Origin: Bacteroidales bacterium
GTDB taxonomy: Bacteria; Bacteroidota; Bacteroidia; Bacteroidales; P3
Length of the DNA: 37,267 bases
Assembly: GCA_017480145.1 (NCBI GenBank)
Contig: JAFVBF010000079.1
Location: 1-37,267, forward strand
Direction: 5' to 3'
Shown here: positions 5,461 through 9,814 of the stretch, in pieces
Layout of the letters: every line of letters begins with the position of its first letter
Position numbering within the stretch: the first letter of the stretch is position 1
The notes under the pieces: generated by a model
Seen by the model: the letters and a program-made list of their open reading frames with translations, nothing else
Told to the model about the DNA's origin: nothing
Databases searched by the model: none
Position numbers and translations under genes: made by a program

Positions 5461-6567
5461 ATGAAAACCACTCCGTTTACCGAAAACCACATCGCCCTCG
5501 GTGCCAAGATGGCCGAGTTCGCCGGTTACAACATGCCTATCCAGTATGAAGGCCTCACCATCGAGCATCACAATGTGCGCAACAATGTTGGCGTTTTTGA
5601 TGTCAGCCACATGGGTGAGTTCCGCGCCAAAGGCCCGATAGCCAAGAAGTTCATGCAGTACTGCACCGTCAATGACGTCGAGACCCTGACCGACGGCAAG
5701 GTGCAATACACCTGCCTGCCCAATGGCAATGGTGGTATTGTGGACGATATGCTGGTCTATCGTATCAGCGACGAGGAGTATTTTATGGTTCCCAATGCCG
5801 CCAACATTGACAAGGACTGGAACTGGATGAGCCAGATTGCCGACAAGATGGGCATGACCCTTGGTGTCGATTTCATGAACGAGAGCGAGCAGTGGGCACA
5901 GCTGGCCGTGCAGGGTCCCAACGCCCTCAAGGCCATGCAGAAACTGACAGACAAGAACGTGGTTGATATGGAGTACTACACCTTCCAGATTCTCACCTTT
6001 GCCGGTGTCGAGGGTGTCATCTTCTCCACCACGGGCTATACCGGTGCTGGCGGATGCGAGATTTACATCCCCGTGCAGTATGCCCAGAAGGTCTGGAACG
6101 CCGTTTTCGAGGCTGGCAAAGAGTTCGACATGAAGCCCGCCGGCCTTGGCTGCCGCGACACCCTGCGTCTCGAAAAAGGCTTCTGCCTCTATGGTCATGA
6201 GATTGACGATACCATCAGCCCGCTGGAAGGTGGTTTGGCCTGGATTACCAAGCTGAAAGCCGAAAACAACGTCTTTATCAACAAAGAACTCATCCTGGCT
6301 CAGAAAGCCGCTGGCGTGAAACGCAAAATCGCCGGTTTTGAGATGATTGACCGTGGTATCGCCCGCAACGGCTACGAAGTCTGCGACGCCCAGGGCAACA
6401 AGATTGGTGAGGTCCGCAGCGGCTCTCCCAGCCCCAGCACAGGCAAGAACATCGGCACCGCCCTGCTGAAAGCCGAGTATGCCAAGGCCGGCACCGAAAT
6501 CTATATTAAGATTCGCGAGAAACTCCTCAAGGCCGTCACCGTCAAGATGCCCTTCTACGAGGGTTAA
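5461..6567 (+). CDS. gcvT: Aminomethyltransferase, glycine cleavage system T protein
   Basis: GcvT transfers the methylene group from aminomethyl-lipoyl H protein to tetrahydrofolate and releases ammonia. The protein is full length (368 residues). It shows GVFDVSHMGE (about 42-51), VDDMLVYR (about 94-101), the substrate-pocket motif GYTGAGGCEIY (about 196-206) and CRDTLRLEKGF (about 231-241), followed by the C-terminal beta-barrel domain. Its own promoter lies at 5397-5404. The last 16 codons and stop (6517-6567) are repeated at 7464-7514 with three synonymous changes. The HEPN gene begins only 10 bases after the stop, so it is probably read with gcvT. The other glycine cleavage genes are not in the window. 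Confidence 0.97.
   Translation: MKTTPFTENHIALGAKMAEFAGYNMPIQYEGLTIEHHNVRNNVGVFDVSHMGEFRAKGPIAKKFMQYCTVNDVETLTDGKVQYTCLPNGNGGIVDDMLVYRISDEEYFMVPNAANIDKDWNWMSQIADKMGMTLGVDFMNESEQWAQLAVQGPNALKAMQKLTDKNVVDMEYYTFQILTFAGVEGVIFSTTGYTGAGGCEIYIPVQYAQKVWNAVFEAGKEFDMKPAGLGCRDTLRLEKGFCLYGHEIDDTISPLEGGLAWITKLKAENNVFINKELILAQKAAGVKRKIAGFEMIDRGIARNGYEVCDAQGNKIGEVRSGSPSPSTGKNIGTALLKAEYAKAGTEIYIKIREKLLKAVTVKMPFYEG
6517..6567 (+). repeat. Direct repeat copy 1: 3' end of gcvT
   Basis: The last 16 codons and stop of gcvT match 7464-7514 at 48 of 51 positions, offset by exactly 947 bases. All three differences are third-position transitions that leave the peptide unchanged (GAG/GAA, CTC/CTT, TAC/TAT). Confidence 0.95.
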
Positions 6568-6577
6568 TCGTTAAAGA

Positions 6578-6988
6578 ATGGACACCGCGGAGAAAGTTGA
6601 ATACTGGCTCGGCATCGCCGATTACGACCTTGACACCGCCGAGGCGATGTATTCTACAGGGCGCTGGCTCTATGTAGCATTCATGTGTCATCAAGTTATA
6701 GAGAAGACATTGAAAGCCTACTGGTGTGCCACGCAGGAGGACGAACCGCCGTATATCCACAACCACAAGCGTCTTGCCGACGGCTGTGGATTGTATGCCA
6801 GTATGAGCGTGGAACAGAAAGACTTCCTGAACACGGTGACGACATACAATATCGAGGCACGCTACCCCGAGAGCAAGGATGCGCTTGCGCGAAAGCTTGA
6901 CGAGGAGGCCTGCCGATATATAATTGACCAAACCATAACATTGCAGACATGGATAAAGGGGCAGCTCTCAGCCGCGACGAGGCATTAG
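6578..6988 (+). CDS. HEPN domain protein of a HEPN/MNT pair
   Basis: A 136-residue all-helical protein of the PF05168-like HEPN type. The sequence shows the typical opening (YWLGIADYDLDTAEAMY), the helix with CHQVIEKTLKAYW (about 37-49), the HNHKRLADGC segment (about 61-70) and EARYPESKD (about 93-101). HEPN partners of minimal nucleotidyltransferases act as RNases or as substrates of AMPylation in type VII toxin-antitoxin systems. The R-x4-6-H RNase motif is not evident: the usual place reads RYPESKD without His. It overlaps the downstream nucleotidyltransferase gene by 40 bases in another frame. Start ATG 6578 lies 10 bases after gcvT. Toxin activity is inference. Confidence 0.88.
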   Translation: MDTAEKVEYWLGIADYDLDTAEAMYSTGRWLYVAFMCHQVIEKTLKAYWCATQEDEPPYIHNHKRLADGCGLYASMSVEQKDFLNTVTTYNIEARYPESKDALARKLDEEACRYIIDQTITLQTWIKGQLSAATRH

Positions 6989-7266
6989 ATCTTGTCCGGC
7001 AGTACAAGCACATCATTGCACGGCATTTCCCTCAGGAGCCTCGCGTGCTGATGTATGGTTCCTATTCCAAAGGCAATGCCAATCGTGACAGCGATATTGA
7101 TGTGGCAGTGGTGGTGTCTACGTATGGCGACCGCAAGATGGAACTCTCCAAAGCCCTGTGGCGTGATGTGGATGATGTCAGCCTGCTCATCGAGCCCGTC
7201 TTGATTTCCGAAGACCATCCTTCTCCACTCTACGACGACGTGATGCGTACTGGCATAGTGGTGTGA
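6949..7266 (+). CDS. Minimal nucleotidyltransferase (MNT) of the HEPN/MNT pair
   Basis: A 105-residue DNA polymerase beta-like nucleotidyltransferase. The signature GSYSKGNANRDSDIDVAVVV (residues 37-56) contains the GSxxxG motif and the metal-binding D49/D51 pair. The third acidic position is probably E82 in LLIEPVLI. In known HEPN/MNT systems such as MntA/HepT, this protein AMPylates and silences the HEPN partner and so serves as antitoxin. The ATG at 6949 lies inside the HEPN gene (40-base overlap), consistent with translational coupling. A strong hairpin terminator begins 15 bases after the stop. The pair sits between the two gcvT-end repeats. Confidence 0.9.
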   Translation: MDKGAALSRDEALDLVRQYKHIIARHFPQEPRVLMYGSYSKGNANRDSDIDVAVVVSTYGDRKMELSKALWRDVDDVSLLIEPVLISEDHPSPLYDDVMRTGIVV

Positions 7267-7281
7267 CATTCAAAGATTAAA

Positions 7282-7320
7282 CAATAGAAGAGGCCTGCAA
7301 ATTGCAGGCCTCTTCTATTG
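7282..7320. terminator. Strong hairpin terminator after the MNT gene
   Basis: A perfect 17-bp stem (starting CAATAGAAGAGG) closes over a 5-base AAATT loop and is followed by TTTCTATAACTTTT. Symmetry and A/T-rich flanks would allow action in both directions. It ends the gcvT-HEPN-MNT transcript. Confidence 0.88.
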
Positions 7321-7463
7321 TTTCTATAACTTTTGCTTCCTTTTTACTCAACCCTTGGTAATCTTTTTGCCTCGGTGTGAAGTAGTAATAGTGCGGTAAA
7401 CCTATTCATTCTGTTAATATTCGGCGAATAACCAATGTTCGTCTTTTCTTTGATGGATTTTTT

Positions 7464-7514
7464 GAAAAACTCCTTAAGGCCGTCACCGTCAAGATGCCCT
7501 TCTATGAGGGTTAA
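7464..7514 (+). repeat. Direct repeat copy 2: orphan gcvT 3' end
   Basis: It encodes the same last 16 residues (ending MPFYEG) and stop as gcvT, but nothing upstream of about 7464 resembles gcvT. It is therefore a stranded 3' end rather than a gene. A terminator hairpin follows 33 bases later, as would be expected behind an original gcvT. Confidence 0.93.
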
Positions 7515-7546
7515 AAAATGATGTGATAACTATTTTGTTCACGAAT

Positions 7547-7577
7547 GAGGGTGTCGTAAAGAACACCCTCTTCTTGT
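7547..7577 (+). terminator. Hairpin terminator behind the orphan gcvT end
   Basis: GAGGGTGT and ACACCCTC form a perfect 8-bp stem over an 8-base loop (7547-7570), followed by TTCTTGT. It may be the ancestral gcvT terminator, now separated from the gene by 947 bases. Confidence 0.75.
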
Positions 7578-7639
7578 ATGGGTAATACAGCAAACACATT
7601 ATTAAGTGCTTATGCTGCGTTAATACAATAAAAAACGTC

Positions 7640-7843
7640 ATGTCAGAGAAAGAATTGAACGACTATCGCCTAACTCCGATGGAGGAATCAATTGACGAGA
7701 TGCTTTCTGTCATCATGAAAGAGGCTGCAGCAGAAGCCTCGGTTCAATTTCCCCTCTGGTTTTACAACAACCGTATATGTTCCATCTTCAGTTGGTGTAA
7801 AAGTGGGTTCAACAGAAACTGTAATCGTTACTTTTGTCCCTGA
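7640..7843 (+). pseudogene. Broken 5' end of a Bacteroidales hypothetical gene
   Basis: The first ~33 residues (motif DYRLTPMEESIDEMLSVIMK) look like the N-terminus of a small Bacteroidales family whose members begin with 'DYxLTxLEEPTDEML' and continue into a charged helix. Here the likeness stops at about residue 33 (near 7738). The rest (QFPLWFYNN onward, rich in Cys and Phe) is the reverse complement of the small secreted gene on the other strand and reads like noise until the stop. The A-rich leader before ATG 7640 is compatible with translation of a 67-residue product. I call it a truncated gene start; the family memory is by eye only. Confidence 0.5.
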
Positions 7844-8347: not shown

Positions 8348-8509
8348 CAATATGAACATAACGTTTATGAGAAGAAAAGCGGAACGCTGAATGGTGTGGA
8401 ACCCGTATGGATCACCGCCCAATACAGGTTGCTGTTCCACAGTAGCCCGAATGAGGACGGAATCTTGCGCGATTTATCCCAGAAATTCGGCTGGGTCTGT
8501 ATGTTATAA
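8348..8509 (+). pseudogene. Decayed 3' remnant of an unknown gene
   Basis: A 53-codon stretch runs from directly after a TAG (8345-8347) to TAA (8507-8509) without any ATG near its beginning. The translation is protein-like (NVYEKKSGTLNGVEPVWITA, then a segment with SSPNEDGILRDLSQKFGW) with balanced charge and few rare residues. This suggests the end of a once longer gene whose front has been lost. I do not recognise the family. It could instead be chance. Confidence 0.35.
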
Positions 8510-8548: not shown

Positions 8549-9814
8549 ATGAGTATTATCAAACCTTTCAAGGGCTTTCGCCCGCCCGTCGACATCGTCG
8601 AGAAACTGGCTTCACGTCCTTACGACGTACTGAACTCCGAAGAGGCCCGCGAGGAATGCGAGGGCAACCCCTACAGCCTGCTGCACGTCACGAAGGCTGA
8701 GATTGACCTGCCCAAGGGCACCGACGAGCATTCGCCCGAAGTGTACCTCCAAGTCGTGAAGAACTACAACAAGTTCAAAGACCTCGGCTGGCTGGTGAAG
8801 GATGAGGAGGAGAAACTCTACATCTATGCCCAAAGCATGAACCCCACGGATGCCAACGCCAGATGGCAGTACGGCATCGTGGCCTGCGCCTACAGCGAGG
8901 ACTATGTCAACAAGGTCATCAAGAAGCATGAGCTGACCCGCAAGGACAAGGAAGAAGACCGCATGAAGCACGTCCGCATCACCAACGCCAACGTTGAACC
9001 CGTGTTTTTCGCCTATCCCTCTATCGCCCGCATTGACGAGATAGTGGCCGGCATCACTGCCAAGAAGCCCATCTACGACTTCATCGCCAAGGAAGACGGC
9101 TTCGGCCATCGCTTCTGGGTGATTGACGATAAGGCCACCATCGCCGAACTTGTCGACATCTTTGACAAGCAGGTTCCTGCCATGTACATTGCCGATGGTC
9201 ACCATCGCAGTGCTGCTACCGCCCTCGTGGGACAGGAGAAGAAGGAACAGAACCCCAACCACACCGGCAAGGAGGAGTACAACTACTTCATGACCGTCAT
9301 TTTCCCAGACAATCAGCTCAACGTCATTGACTACAACCGCGTGGTGAAGGACCTCAACGGCCTGTCTAAGGAACAGTTCCTCAATGCCCTCAACGAGGCT
9401 TATACCGTAGAGGATATGGGCACAGAGATTTACAAACCCGCCAAGTTGCACGAGCACAGCATGTATCTGGATGGACATTGGTATAAGATGACCGCCAAGG
9501 CTGGCAAGTATGACGACAACGACCCCATCGGAGTGTTGGATGTCAAGATTCTCTCCGACCATGTGCTTGACAAGATTCTCGGCATCAAGGATCTCCGCAC
9601 CGACAAGCGCATCGACTTCGTGGGCGGTATCCGCGGCCTGGGCGAGCTGAAGCGTCGTGTGGACAATGGCGAGATGAAGGTCGCCTTCGCCCTCTATCCT
9701 GTCAGCATGAAACAGATTATCGACATCGCCGATACCGGCAACATCATGCCTCCCAAGACCACTTGGTTTGAACCCAAGCTGCGCTCCGGTCTCGTAATTC
9801 ACGAGCTGGCATAG
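8549..9814 (+). CDS. DUF1015 family protein (predicted small-molecule kinase-like)
   Basis: A full-length 421-residue soluble DUF1015 protein. The opening IKPFKGFRPP with ASRPYDVLNSEEAR (about 21-34) and the central MYIADGHHRSAA (about 212-223) are family signatures; the GHHR motif recalls the ParB/serine-kinase fold. In other Bacteroidales the gene usually neighbours serA and serC, so a link to serine metabolism is suspected (recollection, not seen here). In this window neither partner is adjacent: upstream is a rearranged gap, downstream a terminator. The start is ATG 8549 after an A-rich leader. The activity is not established by sequence. Confidence 0.88.
   Translation: MSIIKPFKGFRPPVDIVEKLASRPYDVLNSEEAREECEGNPYSLLHVTKAEIDLPKGTDEHSPEVYLQVVKNYNKFKDLGWLVKDEEEKLYIYAQSMNPTDANARWQYGIVACAYSEDYVNKVIKKHELTRKDKEEDRMKHVRITNANVEPVFFAYPSIARIDEIVAGITAKKPIYDFIAKEDGFGHRFWVIDDKATIAELVDIFDKQVPAMYIADGHHRSAATALVGQEKKEQNPNHTGKEEYNYFMTVIFPDNQLNVIDYNRVVKDLNGLSKEQFLNALNEAYTVEDMGTEIYKPAKLHEHSMYLDGHWYKMTAKAGKYDDNDPIGVLDVKILSDHVLDKILGIKDLRTDKRIDFVGGIRGLGELKRRVDNGEMKVAFALYPVSMKQIIDIADTGNIMPPKTTWFEPKLRSGLVIHELA

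Follow-up and report, generated by a model that had tools for sequence, protein, structure and literature searches.

Displaced gcvT ends mark a recurrent hotspot, often holding toxin-antitoxin genes, in a rumen Bacteroidales genus

Introduction

HEPN/MNT modules, in which a HEPN gene is paired with an MNT nucleotidyltransferase gene, have been described as differing between close relatives through recent insertion or loss (PMC2701414). How such chromosomal toxin-antitoxin genes move outside a transposon, phage or plasmid is an open question, which is addressed here starting from a contig of a Bacteroidales bacterium (GenBank assembly GCA_017480145.1, contig JAFVBF010000079.1, positions 1 to 37,267 of the forward strand; this whole stretch of 37,267 nucleotides is referred to as the window). 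In the window, the housekeeping gene gcvT is followed by a HEPN/MNT pair and then by a second copy of its own 3' end, and the same architecture recurs with other cargo in further genomes of the genus.

The closest precedents involve recombination with homology on one side. In Escherichia coli, conjugated DNA cut to linear form was found to leave the homologous gene mostly with a partial duplication (109-950 bp in 14 sequenced clones), which the authors ascribed to a single crossing-over of a circular molecule, while classical homology-facilitated illegitimate recombination (HFIR) gives deletions rather than duplications (PMC3240628). The gcvT locus would share with these cases one homologous side, one homology-poor side and a partial duplication of the homologous gene, but it is natural and recurrent, it lies behind a housekeeping gene in rumen Bacteroidales, and its duplications measure 33-125 nt. 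HFIR has also been proposed for the sequential displacement of effector-immunity modules of the type VI secretion system (T6SS) of Vibrio cholerae, and the displacement of Rhs 3' ends is mentioned in the same source (PMC5361080). As in those arrays, an upstream homologous anchor, a new module adjoining it and old pieces pushed downstream would be seen at gcvT; unlike in them, the anchor is not a toxin and its product is kept, the cargo is often a toxin-antitoxin system, and the scar is a non-functional gene end.

Two other kinds of system resemble the locus from a different side. Minimal mobile elements, in the definition of Saunders and Snyder 2002 as quoted in PMC8627216, show variable content between two conserved genes, and this is what is found between gcvT and the DUF1015 gene, with no tyrosine integrase seen nearby; the gcvT locus differs in leaving a partial copy of the border gene and in that the far border was not found in 25/80 stretches. 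For restriction-modification systems, insertion with long and variable target duplications has been reported (Nobusato 2000 and Furuta 2010, as cited in PMC3874152 and PMC1643837). These are likewise addictive gene pairs framed by direct repeats of local DNA, variable and of the order of 100 bp, whereas here the cargo consists of toxin-antitoxin genes, the gcvT repeat does not go beyond the stop codon, and those copies that have decayed less resemble alleles. In Microcystis, direct repeats of 152 bp have been described on both sides of a ParE/ParD-like pair (PMC7935541). The gcvT case combines these kinds, with a housekeeping anchor, toxin-antitoxin cargo and recurrent scars across species. 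Neither an account of a gcvT hotspot nor a paper joining toxin-antitoxin systems with HFIR was found in the literature searched, which mostly left subscription papers aside.

A second gcvT end behind a HEPN/MNT pair

The gcvT gene of the window is followed, 10 nt past its stop codon and in the same direction, by the HEPN gene. Beyond the pair, the last 51 nt of gcvT are repeated directly (Table 1). As an earlier inspection of the letters alone (the original prediction) had claimed, both copies lie 947 nt apart with a HEPN/MNT pair between them; they agree at 48/51 positions (94%), and the enclosed genes carry PF05168 and PF01909. The repeat is not due to chance. A comparison of the gcvT end with its own downstream 7 kb gave a best ungapped score of 45, against no more than 18 in 20 randomised first-order Markov versions. 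Likewise, a 33-nt pattern of the gcvT end occurs at two places only in the window (expected number 0), and a degenerate 35-nt pattern is restricted to the same two places in the whole 1.9-Mb assembly, which is 81% complete. The three differences between the copies (G>A at -49, C>T at -40 and C>T at -10, counted from the stop) are indeed all synonymous third-position transitions, which keep E, L and Y.

The HEPN toxins are characterised by an RX4-6H motif. A motif scan revealed none in the HEPN protein of the window, and its MNT partner scores 34.2 bits against the NCBIfam MntA antitoxin, below the 60-bit cut-off; the toxin-antitoxin role of the pair is putative, and the pair may act differently from the characterised type VII systems. 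With an MNT gene that carries GSx10DxD behind a PF05168 gene, the pair of the window does resemble the type VII HEPN/MNT systems (PMC2701414, PMC11586414), and it fits the HEPN/MNT definition by its neighbouring genes and by this motif in MNT.

Recurrence across the genus

A search of 120 genomes of the same genus gave matches to the window region in 89, from which 80 stretches were taken; 79 of these hold a gcvT end (L049 lacks one, and G054 gave two stretches), which makes 80 loci with the window (L and G numbers denote loci and genomes). A second gcvT 3' end was found downstream in 8/80 loci, the window included. They represent about six independent events, the cargo of which is for the most part unrelated; L085, L087 and L092 were counted as one event because their cargo and right end are common to them. 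The displaced end lies 947 nt away in the window, 828 in L044 (G021), 858 in L065 (G080), 1238 in L083 (G025), 2890 in L102 (G083), and about 610-645 in L085 (G044), L087 (G007) and L092 (G046); the displaced copy of L085 has suffered an internal loss. Weak matches (L078 minus strand, L082 -93..-62 and L083 +4735) were left uncounted. The gap between gcvT and DUF1015 is thus a recurrent hotspot, probably of capture, in this rumen Bacteroidales genus, and the HEPN/MNT pair, which the original prediction had taken for one small mobile or recombining islet, turns out to be one of many cargos.

When a gcvT-end pattern was searched genome-wide with at most two mismatches, 82/120 genomes matched, and second copies were located beside gcvT only (G054 shows the gcvT end on two contigs). 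Among 190 genomes of the family, 14 matches were obtained outside the genus, all of them single, with a pattern that was fitted to the genus and is likely to miss cases.

Behind the displaced ends of L087 and L092, roughly 0.6-1.7 kb past the gcvT stop, two side observations were made: a unit of about 70 nt is repeated just behind the displaced end (several times in L092), and a gene that by eye resembles a Y1 transposase lies there as well.

Empty sites in relatives

In three of the roughly six events, the sequence behind the displaced end directly follows gcvT in relatives, which therefore carry the empty site. The sequence past the scar of L044 is found directly behind gcvT in L099 (1-548, 95.6%) and in L058 (4-269, 97.7%), the latter being the closest relative of L044 across most of gcvT. 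That of L083 lies behind gcvT in L056 and L082 (0-600, 88.5%), and that of L102 in L054 and L060 (first 59 nt, 91.5% and 86.4%). For the window itself, the first 100 nt past copy 2 were recovered in 0/120 genomes (G085 gave a weak match of 30 nt); the nearest to an empty site are relatives with the same zeta-antitoxin start behind gcvT. The comparison of relatives suggested at the outset therefore gave other cargo between two gcvT ends and empty sites for three events, while a strict empty site for the window was not recovered.

The recurrence of second ends in the 8 loci and the empty sites in about half of the events support the initial idea that the gcvT end was the entry point of an islet which restored the gene as it came in, probably by recombination without an integrase. 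By contrast, an old tandem duplication of gcvT with its downstream DNA, followed by deletion of most of the second gene, is very improbable: it would give a second copy downstream in the same orientation, but it is rejected because the DNA behind the two copies differs and the flanks of copy 2 match the empty sites of relatives, and a further gcvT remnant was not found in the downstream 7 kb of the window. An assembly artefact is scarcely credible either, even though the genomes are fragmented (86 contigs and 81% completeness for that of the window) and most of the named records that match are metagenome bins, since the pattern appears in eight genomes with different cargo and diverged copies, and a false join would not by itself be expected to add gcvT ends fused to unrelated DNA at several edges.

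Shape of the repeats and probable mode of entry

Seven pairs of gcvT ends were examined. In all of them, the similarity stops 0-1 nt past the stop codon, while its 5' edge varies: -33, -35, -39, -51, -64 and -87 (both in one event) and -125. In the five less decayed pairs, 9/13 differences fall at third codon positions (p=0.009), as if both copies had recently been the ends of working genes, in line with the earlier suggestion that copy 2 is the end of a functional allele; the more decayed pairs show 6/18 (L087) and 9/13 (L092) third-position differences. Synonymous conservation of the gcvT end, as a possible sign of an overlapping site, is slight and equally high elsewhere in the gene.

The similarity halting at the gene end fits an incoming gcvT end, since spacers differ between species. 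Such an entry is probably one-sided: DNA carrying a gcvT end would enter by homologous recombination on one side and be closed by a homology-poor join on the other. The incoming DNA would consist of a gcvT 3' end plus cargo and would recombine with the resident gcvT. On its left side, homology within gcvT would leave the gene whole, with the last codons of the donor; on its right side, the join would lie within the 3' end of the resident gcvT. An equivalent route would be the single crossover of a circularised fragment that carries a short piece of the gcvT end. In either case, the last 33-125 nt of the resident gcvT would be moved to the far side of the new cargo, where they would form a scar ahead of the old downstream DNA, and successive rounds would pile up cargo with the newest beside gcvT. 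Cargo of this kind, often a toxin-antitoxin pair and here HEPN/MNT, would be placed for transcriptional read-through from gcvT, and addiction may aid its persistence.

One-sided entry or a single crossover is favoured because of the stop-codon limit, the allele-like differences, the lack of shared islet ends and the absence of a tyrosine recombinase on the gcvT contigs. For HFIR, microhomology of 3-10 bp is expected at the homology-poor join; 3-nt overlaps (GTC/CCG) are seen by eye in L065 and L044, and the join points in gcvT are variable. Copy 1 of the window, which would have been supplied by the incoming DNA, is identical (51/51) to the gcvT ends of the main-clade loci L040, L055 and L057, whereas gene-body windows average 78-88% to that clade; as a trace of donor DNA this match is suggestive only.

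Several points weigh against one-sided entry. The copy 1 match could also stem from common codon use. A donor tract in gcvT is at most weakly visible, in the comparison of L044 with L058 (7 of the last 85 nt differ, as against 34 of 1015; p=0.03, with the cut-off of 85 set after looking). In L083, copy 2 is not nearer than copy 1 to the empty-site relative L056 (101/108 each). A donor locus for the window was not found, and for the stretch of 140 nt that precedes copy 2 (query 7320-7463) the 120 genomes gave only weak matches of 30-35 nt, which lie in three other genomes (E 0.001-0.005). The displaced ends do not exceed 125 nt, whereas joins at random points of gcvT should also leave longer ones, so that long repeats must be assumed to have been lost; the short scars may thus derive from longer, unstable repeats. 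Finally, a ComEC-family gene is present in the host, but the E. coli control has ComEC too, and this is no proof of competence.

Framing repeats beyond gcvT

The repeats might instead be long target duplications, in which a nearly bare toxin-antitoxin pair inserts behind genes or promoters and duplicates tens of nt of local DNA, as proposed for restriction-modification systems. This idea draws on HEPN/MNT modules at other sites. A species-genome search yielded 194 HEPN relatives, of which the best 80 loci, mostly from rumen Bacteroidales, were used (six of these 80 lie behind gcvT). With the window there are 81 modules, 77 of them with enough flank for a search of repeats between 300-nt flanks. 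A direct repeat was found in 16/77 modules, the window included, vs 5/416 shifted windows. This control is too lenient because most shifted windows fall in genes, and against intergenic-bounded blocks of the same loci (12/105) the excess is not significant (p=0.098). By eye, the control matches in L166, L169, L193, L203 and L214 themselves hold toxin-antitoxin-looking genes (HigA-like, GNAT, RelE-like, zeta and PIN).

When the toxin-antitoxin blocks of both locus sets were pooled, 17/83 were framed vs 27/413 other blocks (p=2e-4), or 16/82 vs 28/414 (p=9e-4) without the seeds chosen after the result had been seen. These p values are optimistic because related sequences are not independent. This comparison leaves out L143-L147, L148 and L153, which repeat loci already included, as well as 4 mixed blocks; where a block of one or two genes had a single recognised toxin-antitoxin gene, it was classed as toxin-antitoxin. 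In similar modules, shared DNA is often confined to the stretch between roughly the start of HEPN and the stop of MNT, a limit to which coding constraint contributes. Framing repeats include 74 nt that take in the 3' end of an upstream gene in L196, a 49-nt leader in L175 and 96 nt of terminator and promoter in L172 (roles assigned by eye). In the other HEPN/MNT loci of the genus (L010, L011, L012 and L014) they are weak, the best being 43 nt at 72% in L014 (E 4e-4) and 45 nt at 69% in L012 (E 0.002).

At gcvT, target duplication is unlikely because the duplicated stretch would usually extend into the spacer, whereas in each of the seven pairs examined the repeat reaches no further than the stop codon, and where the copies have decayed less their differences are coding-like, unlike those of a fresh local duplication.

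Gene ends other than that of gcvT are also duplicated. Among 890 genes in loci chosen for gcvT or HEPN, 12 gene-end duplications were detected, five of gcvT and seven of other genes, by a scan that overlooked the gcvT cases of L065, L085 and L092. A gene resembling by eye the ComM type has its 3' end duplicated around HEPN/MNT in L196 (3840-4780); in the relative G249 (C72:23377-29127), this gene is followed at a distance of 5.2 kb by a 96-nt copy of its end, and two copies of about 160 nt lie 1 kb apart in G206 (C31:7503-8696). This gene end is a possible second gene-end hotspot. In the search for its empty site, 51/59 genomes matched L196, many with the gene end alone, and a downstream flank shared with L196 was not found among them, which gives no proof of an empty site.

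Another direct repeat, nearly perfect and at least 41 nt long, encloses a minus-strand pair of PIN-like toxin-antitoxin genes (judged by eye) in L044 (3343-4065); it abuts both ends of the pair and resembles a promoter region.

Possible site-specific recombination at gcvT

The original prediction had also suggested a search for the 51-bp segment as att-like repeats, and site-specific integration is a rival explanation. The gcvT 3' end would be attB and the islet would carry attP, with a recombinase acting in trans; the element would supply a new gene end and displace the old one. Such an architecture is known in general from integration into gene 3' ends, and in three of the roughly six events the 5' edges are close to each other (-33, -35 and -39). 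Nevertheless, the remaining edges (-51, about -60 to -90, and -125) depart from them, so an att site of fixed extent was rejected, the more so as the two-mismatch pattern gave no copies away from gcvT in the 120 genomes. Apart from a single 14-nt match (L102/L085, E 0.006), independent islets have no ends in common, and a search for terminal inverted repeats on them found none. In the eight two-copy genomes, 31 tyrosine recombinase matches were obtained, none on the gcvT contigs; serine recombinases were outside the search. With neither a fixed attachment core nor shared ends nor a tyrosine integrase on these contigs, site-specific integration is judged quite improbable.

Short gcvT-end matches that end at -7 (L038, L046, L051, L060, L063, L075 and a second match in L092) were also considered as att sites and set aside, as by eye they resemble one stretch of DUF1015 coding sequence.

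Layered cargo between gcvT and DUF1015

The gap between gcvT and DUF1015 in the window holds one intact system (HEPN/MNT) and the relics of two other toxin-antitoxin systems, a zeta antitoxin and a HigB/HigA pair (Table 1). The latter lies just upstream of the DUF1015 gene and is a third toxin-antitoxin system of the gap. As for the hairpin predicted behind copy 2, it is present, and its status as the original gcvT terminator is plausible only.

Table 1. Features of the window from gcvT to the DUF1015 gene
Feature	Position	Strand	Support
gcvT, aminomethyltransferase, complete, 368 aa	5461..6567	+	PF01571, PF08669; TIGR00528 and NF001567 above cut-off
Copy 1, gcvT 3' end within the gene	6517..6567	+	Direct-repeat comparison; probably supplied by incoming DNA
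HEPN gene, 136 aa	6578..6988	+	PF05168, E 2e-20; motif scan
MNT nucleotidyltransferase gene, 105 aa, overlaps HEPN	6949..7266	+	PF01909; GSx10DxD at residues 37-51
Strong hairpin 3' of MNT, likely terminator	7279..7323	+	22-bp perfect arms, z -9.4
Filler between HEPN/MNT module and copy 2, 140 nt	7324..7463		
Copy 2, displaced gcvT 3' end up to the stop codon (scar)	7464..7514	+	
Hairpin 3' of copy 2, candidate original gcvT terminator	7547..7570	+	z -3.1 for 7515-7585
Zeta-toxin antitoxin relic, first residues	7640..7743	+	33 aa at 85%; 7643-7741
HigB-type toxin relic running into a HigA C-terminal match	8366..8503	+	HigB 8366-8467, 85% over 34 aa; HigA 8417-8503, 50%
DUF1015 gene, far border of the variable gap	8549..9814	+	PF06245

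The zeta-antitoxin gene starts roughly 105-115 nt behind gcvT in loci L057, L069, L083 and L096. In the search of the 120 genomes, its start lies about 90-125 nt behind gcvT in genomes G025, G048, G054 and G103; it also occurs 1.6 kb behind gcvT in G052 and in other places in G069, G080 and G117. A DUF1015 gene stands 3' of gcvT on the same strand in 55/80 loci, with gaps of 49-7854 nt and varied contents, and the gap is nearly empty in L089 (49 nt) and L110 (77 nt). The border was not found in the other 25 loci, of which 8 are stretches shorter than 5.3 kb and 17 reach at least 6 kb; over such a distance it is therefore not always present.

Cargo beside gcvT in the loci of the genus includes, by protein-family matches, HEPN/MNT, Unstab_antitox-ParE, zeta systems and a helix-turn-helix (HTH) pair, and by eye also cargo of other kinds, namely a lipoprotein-like gene (L085, L087 and L092) and a radical-SAM-like cluster (L102). 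In L033-L038, HEPN/MNT lies 10-60 nt behind gcvT and a displaced end was not detected. A toxin-antitoxin gene starts within 130 nt behind 10/54 recognised gcvT genes, compared with 11/436 other genes of the same loci (p=1.6e-5), by an automatic open reading frame call that overlooks some toxin-antitoxin genes visible by eye.

In L102, the terminal part of a zeta-toxin gene (2747-2890 nt past the gcvT stop, with a stop codon seen by eye) is fused directly to the displaced gcvT end. This junction suggests that a zeta module was there before and that its front part has since been replaced.

Significance

Displaced gene ends make it possible to recognise where DNA has been captured behind a housekeeping gene through one-sided homologous recombination. 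They are ordered scars that can be searched in any set of genomes, which makes the movement of chromosomal toxin-antitoxin genes countable. In a wider and tentative view, toxin-antitoxin pairs of rumen Bacteroidales may possibly spread nearly bare, without a recombinase of their own, on short ends or promoters of neighbouring genes; they would regenerate the neighbour, leave a scar and be kept by addiction, and gene ends would then be layered records of invasion.

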